From Cerasicoccus sp. TK19100 (lineage in GTDB: Bacteria; Verrucomicrobiota; Verrucomicrobiia; Opitutales; Cerasicoccaceae), in contig NZ_JAPWDU010000001.1 of assembly GCF_027257155.1 (NCBI RefSeq), forward strand, positions 62,001 to 126,000: a stretch of 64,000 bases of DNA, written 5' to 3'. Shown here in pieces: positions 50,536-52,913 of the stretch (the stretch's first letter is position 1; each line of letters starts with the position of its first letter). A model generated the notes under the pieces. It was not told the origin of the DNA. It saw nothing but the letters and a program-made list of their open reading frames with translations, and did no database searches. Made by a program: the position numbers and the translations under genes.

Positions 50536-50991
50536 CTAACGCATCACCTTGAGGTCGCTGATCTCGGCGGCGAGCTCTTCGATGTCGCGGAAGTCTTTAT
50601 AGACGCTGGCGAAGCGGACGTAGGCGATCTGGTCGATCTCCTTCAGGCGGTTCATGATCAGCTCGCCAATGGCTTTGCTGGGGATTTCGCTGCCGAATTC
50701 GCGCTCCAGCTCGTCGATCATTTCGACGATCATCATTTCGATTTGCTCGGCTTCGATGGGGCGTTTTTCGGCGGCGCGGCGGATACCGGCCAGCATCTTC
50801 ATGCGGTCAAACTCCTCGCGGGCACCGTTGCGTTTGACGACCACCAGGCCCTCGCGGAGAATTTCTTCGATCGTGGTAAAGCGGTAGCCGCAGCCCAGGC
50901 ATTGGCGGCGGCGGCGAATGGACAGGTTGTTCTTGCCCAATCGGGTGTCCAACACCTTGGTGTCGGCGTGCGTGCATTTGGGACACTGCAT
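50536..50991 (-). CDS. nrdR: Transcriptional repressor NrdR
   Basis: 151-residue zinc-ribbon/ATP-cone repressor of ribonucleotide reductase genes. N-terminal zinc ribbon [15 protein letters not shown]...[17 protein letters not shown] (two C-x2-C pairs), then the ATP-cone [20 protein letters not shown] with [14 protein letters not shown] and [10 protein letters not shown]. All four Cys present. No nrd genes within the window. Confidence 0.96.
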
Positions 50992-51785: not shown

Positions 51786-52913
51786 ATGACCAACTCCTTC
51801 CAGCTTCTACAAGGCGAGGCCAATGGGCCGCGGCGCGGGCGCGTGTTGACGCGTCATGGTGAGATCGAGACACCCATCTTTATGCCCGTGGGCACGCAGG
51901 CGACTGTCAAGGCGCTGACCCCCGCGCAGGTGGAGGAAGTCGGTGCGCAGATCATTCTGGGAAACACGTATCATCTCAATTTACGCCCGGGTTCTGAGCT
52001 CGTTGCGCAAATGGGTGGGCTGCATAAGTTTATGGCTTGGAATAAGCCAATTCTTACCGATAGCGGTGGTTTTCAGGTTTTTAGTTTGGCGAAACTGCGC
52101 AAGATAACCGACAAGGGGATCGCGTTTCAGAGCCACATTGACGGGCGGAAGTTTTTCCTCGGGCCGCGTGAGTGCTTCGACATTCAGCGCAATCTGGGCA
52201 CCGACATCGCCATGGTGCTCGACGAATGTCCGCCGTTCCCCTGCGATGAAAAAGACTGTGCCGCCGCGGTGGACCGCACGATCCGTTGGGCGCGCGAATT
52301 TAAGGAAATTGCGGCTGGTGAGGGGTGGCTCGACGCCGGGCACCACGCCTTTGGTATCGTGCAGGGCTCGATCTACGACGACCAACGCAAAGCCTGCGCA
52401 CAGGCCCTGGTGGACATCGGTTTCCCTGGCTATGCGGTTGGTGGCGTGAGCGTCGGCGAGCCGGAGCCCGAGATGTTGCGCCAGGTCGCGGCAAGTATCC
52501 CTGAGCTGCCCGTGGACAAGCCCCGCTACGTGATGGGCGTGGGCACGCCGCCGCAGTTGCTCAAAATGATCGGCCTTGGCGCGGACATGTTTGACTGTGT
52601 GATGCCGACTCGTCTTGCCCGGCACGCCAATGTGTTTACTCCCCACGGAACGATCAATTTGCGCAATGAGCGTTTTAAACACGACGAATCTCCCATCGTC
52701 GAAGGGCTCGATAACTACACCTGCCGGACGTTTTCCCGCGCTTACTTGAGACACCTGATTATGGCCAATGAGTTATTGGCGCACACTTTGCTCTCATTAC
52801 ACAATGTGCATTTCTTTCTCGACTTAATGCGCCAAGCGCGAGAGCACATAGCCATTGGTGACTTCACGCCATGGAGTCAGCAATGGATCGAAAGTTATCA
52901 TTCTCGAGACTAA
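51786..52913 (+). CDS. tgt: Queuine tRNA-ribosyltransferase
   Basis: Exchanges G34 for a 7-deazaguanine (preQ1) in tRNAs for His, Tyr, Asp and Asn. 375 residues: GTQATVKALTP; LGNTYHLNLRPG; LTDSGGFQVFSL (catalytic Asp); GIVQGSIYDDQR; GVSVGEPEPEM; MGVGTPPQLL; FDCVMPTRLARHANVFT (second Asp). The C-terminal zinc site is altered. Where E. coli has C-D-C-Y-T-C...H, this protein reads LDNYTCRTFSRAYLRHL...SLHNVHF, so only one Cys and the His remain. Whether it binds zinc is doubtful. Otherwise typical length and motifs. Confidence 0.93.
   Translation: MTNSFQLLQGEANGPRRGRVLTRHGEIETPIFMPVGTQATVKALTPAQVEEVGAQIILGNTYHLNLRPGSELVAQMGGLHKFMAWNKPILTDSGGFQVFSLAKLRKITDKGIAFQSHIDGRKFFLGPRECFDIQRNLGTDIAMVLDECPPFPCDEKDCAAAVDRTIRWAREFKEIAAGEGWLDAGHHAFGIVQGSIYDDQRKACAQALVDIGFPGYAVGGVSVGEPEPEMLRQVAASIPELPVDKPRYVMGVGTPPQLLKMIGLGADMFDCVMPTRLARHANVFTPHGTINLRNERFKHDESPIVEGLDNYTCRTFSRAYLRHLIMANELLAHTLLSLHNVHFFLDLMRQAREHIAIGDFTPWSQQWIESYHSRD

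Follow-up and report, generated by a model that had tools for sequence, protein, structure and literature searches.

A tRNA-guanine transglycosylase lacking two of its four zinc ligands in Cerasicoccus sp. TK19100, and the loss of the zinc site as a lineage trait in Verrucomicrobiota

Main finding

The tRNA-guanine(34) transglycosylase (Tgt) encoded within a 64,000-nucleotide stretch of the Cerasicoccus sp. TK19100 genome (the window) is most probably a normal bacterial Tgt, active but without its structural zinc, as judged from its sequence and its predicted structure. The zinc site is the sole test in which the protein departs from Tgt, and its loss is a trait of a lineage of marine and gut bacteria rather than a peculiarity of one genome. 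The site is treated as a hallmark of Tgt (PMC6165067) and TGT is listed among the enzymes that need zinc for activity (PMC9508795). The surprise is moderate, as the loss of structural zinc has precedents in GluRS and in the ribosomal proteins L31 and L36, yet the Tgt site is described as both a hallmark and a requirement. No account of a zinc-less Tgt, or of such a trait in Verrucomicrobiota, was found in the literature searched, which covered few subscription journals, so that prior publication is possible.

The tgt gene and its former zinc site

The window protein scored 461.7 bits with the bacterial Tgt model TIGR00430, against a cut-off of 306.75, and 500.3 bits with the Pfam TGT profile, thus qualifying as a bacterial Tgt. 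A profile search of the whole 5.07 Mb genome returned this gene as the single Tgt match. In the alignment with E. coli K-12 Tgt (L231), the motif columns read CDCYTC in the E. coli protein and LDNYTC in the window protein, and the cysteine motif faced LDNYTC in the same columns when PDB 10fb was aligned. The zinc ligands of E. coli Tgt are said to have been described by Chong et al. in 1995. The C-x-C-x2-C motif is therefore represented by L308-x-N310-x2-C313, with His339 retained, and the E. coli alignment bears out the claim of the first-pass annotation that Leu and Asn had replaced the C-x-C, leaving one Cys and the His. Since the ligand positions are occupied by L308, N310, C313 and H339, and not by the three Cys and one His of a zinc-binding Tgt, the protein was classed as a Tgt and not as a zinc-site Tgt.

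The same type of change was present in all three congeners compared (L003-L005), the L004 protein being identical to L051 from Cerasicoccus frondis. As the three congeners and the whole clade of 98 sequences described below carry the change, a sequencing error was ruled out. The coordinates of the gene, of the codons discussed and of other loci are collected in Table 1.

Table 1. Positions of tgt, of its relevant codons and of other zinc-protein loci (window coordinates unless a contig is given).
Feature	Position	Strand	Remarks
tgt, tRNA-guanine(34) transglycosylase	51786..52913	+	375 aa, no internal stop; sole genome copy
Codon 92, Asp	52059..52061	+	Equivalent of Z. mobilis Asp102, general acid/base (PMC4425180); 98/98 clade rows
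Codon 270, Asp	52593..52595	+	Equivalent of Z. mobilis Asp280, nucleophile (PMC4425180); 98/98
Codon 308, Leu, CTC	52707..52709	+	First zinc-Cys position
Codon 310, Asn, AAC	52713..52715	+	Second zinc-Cys position
Codon 313, Cys, TGC	52722..52724	+	Third zinc-Cys position; kept here, gone in 42/98 clade rows
Codons 320-323, Tyr320 and His323	52743..52754	+	Equivalents of dimer-interface Tyr330/His333 (PMC5395182); helix after the former zinc loop; 98/98
Codon 339, His, CAC	52800..52802	+	Fourth ligand position; His in 97/98 rows, the remaining row ending at a contig edge
Codon 354, His	52845-52847		Marks the zinc-less clade
Codon 359, acidic	52860-52862		Marks the zinc-less clade
NrdR, beside tgt	50536-50991	-	CPKC/CLGC zinc ribbon kept
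L36, L31, L33 (loci L237, L238, L239)	G000 C5:160995-161370 and C8:138207-138359		L36 adjoins L31

Catalytic residues, selection and the queuosine pathway

The catalytic and preQ1-pocket residues examined are present in the window protein (D92, D146, C148, Q193, G220, V223, M250 and D270), and these eight positions are identical in 98/98 sequences of its clade and in 95/95 canonical ones. The same holds for the dimer positions Phe82, Tyr320 and His323. We take D146, Q193, G220 and M250 to serve in base recognition and in the preQ1 pocket. Residue roles were also drawn from PMC6165067.

The tgt gene is under purifying selection. The dN/dS ratio between the window gene and L003, the sole unsaturated congener pair checked, was 0.042, while the other congener pairs showed dS values near or at saturation. 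The C-terminal part, from residue 299 onwards, evolves faster, with a pN of 0.125 vs 0.052 for the whole protein in the same pair, dN/dS being saturated in that part.

The window genome also encodes QueA (312 bits), QueG (390 bits) and QueC (203 bits), each above its cut-off. Of 17 Opitutales genomes sampled, 16 had a QueA match above the cut-off, the exception being G156, whose match fell below it and contained a TGA; the same was true of 15 of the 16 sampled genomes of the family f29, where G161, inferred to be A. muciniphila, returned no match. The latter organism, with a zinc-less Tgt, may stop at preQ1. As these two cases show, a zinc-less Tgt is not always accompanied by an intact route to queuosine (Q). 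Neither Tgt nor QueA was found in G086 and G106, two genomes of 0.9 Mb from the class.

Predicted structure and proposed explanation

The window protein was modelled with AlphaFold2 from a 61-row alignment, with no templates and with metals left unmodelled. The model showed an overall pLDDT of 93.1, with values of 94-97 across the blocks of residues 301-340, and displayed the TIM-barrel Tgt fold with its C-terminal subdomain. Its best match among solved structures was PDB 4hqv (Z 54.5, rmsd 1.4, 372 aligned residues), and the best Foldseek match was 1efz, with a TM score of 0.95. A Cys-free relative, L079, modelled from 44 zinc-less rows only, gave a pLDDT of 92.6, with 91 and 97 across residues 301-320, and best matched 1q2r (Z 53.4, rmsd 1.2 over 365 residues). 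By these models the sequence pattern remains compatible with the Tgt fold, which is not proof of zinc-free folding, as a dead variant may fold equally well.

In Tgts that bind zinc, the loop ahead of the dimer helix is anchored by the metal to the N-terminus of the final long helix. The model of the window protein places all three helices of this region as expected, namely the long one (330-357), the dimer one (318-326) and a short one between loop and helix (311-315), so that ordinary packing would have to do the work of the metal. We propose, as the most likely mechanism, that the former zinc subdomain now holds together without metal: the small C-terminal subdomain would fold by side-chain packing and would still present the dimer helix with Tyr320 and His323. 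The zinc-free enzyme would then still exchange G34 for preQ1 in tRNAs with GUN anticodons.

Distribution of the loss in Verrucomicrobiota

A total of 218 distinct Tgt rows, E. coli included, were aligned after the removal of 12 identical ones; the rows are hand-picked samples from longer lists. The C-x-C-x2-C motif was canonical in 107 of them and lost in 111. Within the order of the window a Tgt match was found in 48 of 54 genomes. The window protein, from an organism that NCBI taxonomy assigns to Puniceicoccales, belongs to an Opitutales/Puniceicoccales clade of 98 distinct rows (support 98, FastTree, zinc-site columns excluded) in which the motif is absent throughout, with zero canonical sequences inside. 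Among the named Opitutales-like Tgts the site was lost in all 47 distinct rows, derived from 57 loci. The named rows outside this set, chosen by similarity to the window protein and coming mostly from Desulfobacterota, were canonical in 23/23 cases (L107-L130 minus L119). The motif was kept in 43 of the 49 rows read from other orders of the class and in all 28 rows that were read from the phylum's other classes.

The six zinc-less exceptions among the other orders belonged to two families, f29 (L155, L156, L158) and f33 (L159, L160, L162), within a single class. In L155, from the inferred A. muciniphila genome, and in L156, the zinc His is replaced by Gln, and none of the four ligands is left in the former. 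L143, from a genome inferred to be Opitutus terrae PB90-1 (G148), carries the motif NYTS and zero Cys. The loss of the zinc site is a lineage trait. The first-pass annotation had held that its claim would fall if the change were common in the family and a known alternative ligand existed; the change is indeed common in the lineage, and no alternative ligand was found in the comparison of clade and canonical rows reported below.

Among 113 genomes from the class, eight (G028, G094, G124, G134, G137, G172, G238 and G298) carried a second, longer Tgt, with open frames of 688-779 aa (e.g. L359:255-2303 and L361:684-2852), a copy that the window genome lacks. Where read (L035, L230), it showed a canonical CxCxxC motif, so that some Opitutales possess a zinc-type Tgt beside the zinc-less one. 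The L359 copy is fused to a stretch resembling the MnmC2 methyltransferase, which scored 71.5 bits, below the cut-off of 136.

Number of losses

In the 82-row Tgt tree the site trait needs 6 changes, 5 of them forced by starred branches, and a history with a single change was recovered in 0/200 bootstrap trees. The 52-row tree of the class needs 2 changes, forced by starred branches. When Opitutales and the second zinc-less group were constrained as one clade the AU test did not reject the constraint (p-AU 0.143), nor did it when the four second-group rows were constrained together (p-AU 0.247). At least two losses are thus favoured by the trees, not proven: one would date from the origin of the Opitutales-type clade, and another, probably separate, would have occurred in a different lineage of the same class. 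A single origin for every loss was considered and set aside on the change counts, which oppose it, yet the AU value of 0.143 does not reject one clade of the two main groups.

The site is also missing in the divergent rows L033, L034, L038, L040, L042, L048 and L049, which were given no weight on account of their long branches and their position among foreign Tgts. More generally, several Tgts of L033-L050, from order-level genomes of which several measure 0.8-1.5 Mb, showed 35-46% identity and grouped with Tgts of other phyla; both zinc-type and zinc-less forms occur among them. These may be replaced copies, transferred copies, or the products of loosely placed genomes.

Ligand decay and alternative readings of the protein

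Of the 98 clade rows, 56 retain the third Cys and 42 have lost it; 16 retain the second and one the first. An NYTC-type motif, with the third Cys only, occurs in 51/98 rows, another subset has CFAS-like motifs with the second Cys only, and L020 retains the first and third. The 22-residue motif stretch holds zero Cys in 25/98 rows, and no ligand pair survives in common to all clade Tgts. As the ligands decay differently between sister clades and a quarter of the rows has no Cys in the motif stretch, the pattern looks like decay rather than the remodelling of a metal site. Substitute ligands were sought by scanning for columns in which C, H, CH or DE is commoner in the clade than in the 95 canonical rows by more than 0.4. 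The scan returned positions 130, 158, 178, 186, 187, 198, 229, 280, 295, 354, 359 and 372, zero of them inside the motif stretch, and neither a Cys nor a His gained by the 98 clade rows relative to the 95 canonical rows adjoins the former site in sequence. His342, which is the second histidine of the HNxH motif, occurs in 67/95 canonical and 62/98 clade rows; its frequency in the canonical rows makes it ancestral.

It is unlikely, on these data, that a remodelled site persists in which Cys313 and His339, together with newly recruited residues (such as His342, Asp309, or His354/Asp359 in the last helices), hold zinc or another metal. Cys313 and His339 are indeed retained in the window protein and in its genus, and His354 (81/98 clade rows vs 12% of canonical ones) and the acidic residue at 359 (89% vs 13%) are enriched in the clade. 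However, His342 is ancestral, Cys313 is missing from so many rows, and the clade Tgts with zero motif Cys keep the same residues elsewhere; in the model, moreover, His354 and Asp359 lie 15-20 residues from His339 along helix 330-357 and would hardly be its neighbours. The first-pass annotation had offered two readings, a takeover by other residues and a loss of zinc dependence. The former finds no support, as there is no Cys or His gain beside the site and HNxH is ancestral; the latter is favoured by the decay of the ligands, complete for Cys in part of the clade, with the rest of the enzyme kept. His339 persists in 97/98 rows despite its lost supposed partners; it may have some role, even weak metal binding with Cys313.

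A further improbable reading is that Tgt is itself decaying or non-catalytic, being on its way out or serving as a tRNA binder only, like eukaryotic QTRT2. The residues lost are among those called highly conserved (PMC4425180), and the C-terminal part evolves faster. Against this, every catalytic position checked is identical in the 98 rows, and the window protein has both Asp residues, whereas QTRT2 has lost the nucleophile and the acid/base Asp (PMC6165067). The gene is the only copy in a genome that retains QueA and QueG, its dN/dS is low, and its TIGR00430 score lies well above the cut-off. The reading retained here is that of an active, zinc-free Tgt.

Ribosomal proteins and a possible zinc economy

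The sole L36, L31 and L33 of the window genome (one match each above cut-off) lack paired cysteines, which we take to be the zinc-form motifs of these proteins, as would be expected of a zinc-sparing set; they read MKVVSSIKSLKHRHPDCQVV..., MKSEIHPTYNPVCFVDV... and MARDTVILECTEARKENKPV..., respectively. The L36 sequences of 70 genomes from the class were read; 52 entered the comparison, 18 genomes with no Tgt read (9 C-minus, 9 C-plus) being left out. Their L36 type agrees with the Tgt type in 45/52 cases: zinc-less Tgts occur with 20 C-minus L36 and 1 C-plus, and canonical Tgts with 6 C-minus and 25 C-plus or CxxC-type. These genomes provide only two independent tree contrasts, which ran in the same direction in 1.5/2 on average, so that no significance is reachable for the link.

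The results suggest, as a lead, a zinc economy shared by Tgt and L36/L31/L33. In this explanation, which concerns the cause of the loss and is compatible with a zinc-free active Tgt, the loss would be no peculiarity of Tgt but part of a lineage-wide zinc-free translation set under long-term zinc scarcity. We regard it as possible but tentative. The Cys-poor forms of the only L31, L33 and L36 of the genome speak for it, as do the 20/21 zinc-less Tgts found with a Cys-poor L36 and the 25/31 canonical Tgts found with a CxxC-type one. Besides the scarcity of independent contrasts, it is weakened by G115, where a zinc-less Tgt meets a zinc-type L36, and by the six canonical-Tgt genomes, whose Cys-poor L36 is of a different form (37-38 residues as matched; 41 residues in 20/20 of those with a zinc-less Tgt). 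In f33, the Tgt site was lost while L36 is zinc-type. L33 is Cys-poor in canonical-Tgt genomes too and is therefore uninformative. The NrdR encoded beside tgt keeps its zinc ribbon, so structural zinc was not lost throughout the genome, and QueC, a zinc enzyme (PMC9508795), is kept as well.

Comparison with known systems and significance

The window protein shares with canonical bacterial Tgt (TIGR00430; Z. mobilis, E. coli) the fold, the length, the catalytic Asp pair, the base-recognition residues, the dimer Tyr and His and the membership score, and differs in lacking two of the four zinc ligands, its relatives lacking three or four. With eukaryotic QTRT1 and QTRT2 it has the superfamily and the fold in common. 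Both of these keep the zinc domain (PMC6165067, PMC4425180), whereas the window protein lacks the zinc ligands and carries Cys148 and Val223 of the bacterial type (Z. mobilis C158/V233), not the eukaryotic Val and Gly. A precedent is offered by bacterial GluRS, another enzyme acting on tRNA: many species lack its zinc motif, and its putative zinc domain works metal-free (PMC4381286); it is, however, an unrelated protein, and metal-free function was tested there while it is inferred for the window Tgt. The C-minus L31 and L36 of the YkgM/YkgO type are likewise zinc-free forms of zinc-binding translation proteins, which the L36 and L31 of the window genome resemble. The E. coli ones are second copies under Zur control (PMC9825181), whereas the window genome encodes its L31, its L36 and the zinc-less Tgt once each.

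We hold a broader picture with some reserve, as a hypothesis that may well prove wrong: in Opitutales and Akkermansia-type bacteria, translation would have been freed of structural zinc at least twice, a fully active zinc-free Tgt arising in step with a permanent switch of L36 and, with it, L31. If true, Tgt would be a new and constitutive member of the zinc-sparing translation proteins. A clade-wide Tgt without zinc would make the metal a removable scaffold, and the Tgts with three, two, one and zero Cys would form a natural series for how proteins shed a metal. As Akkermansiaceae are predicted Q makers (PMC11130926), the zinc-less Tgt would also bear on the supply of Q in the gut.
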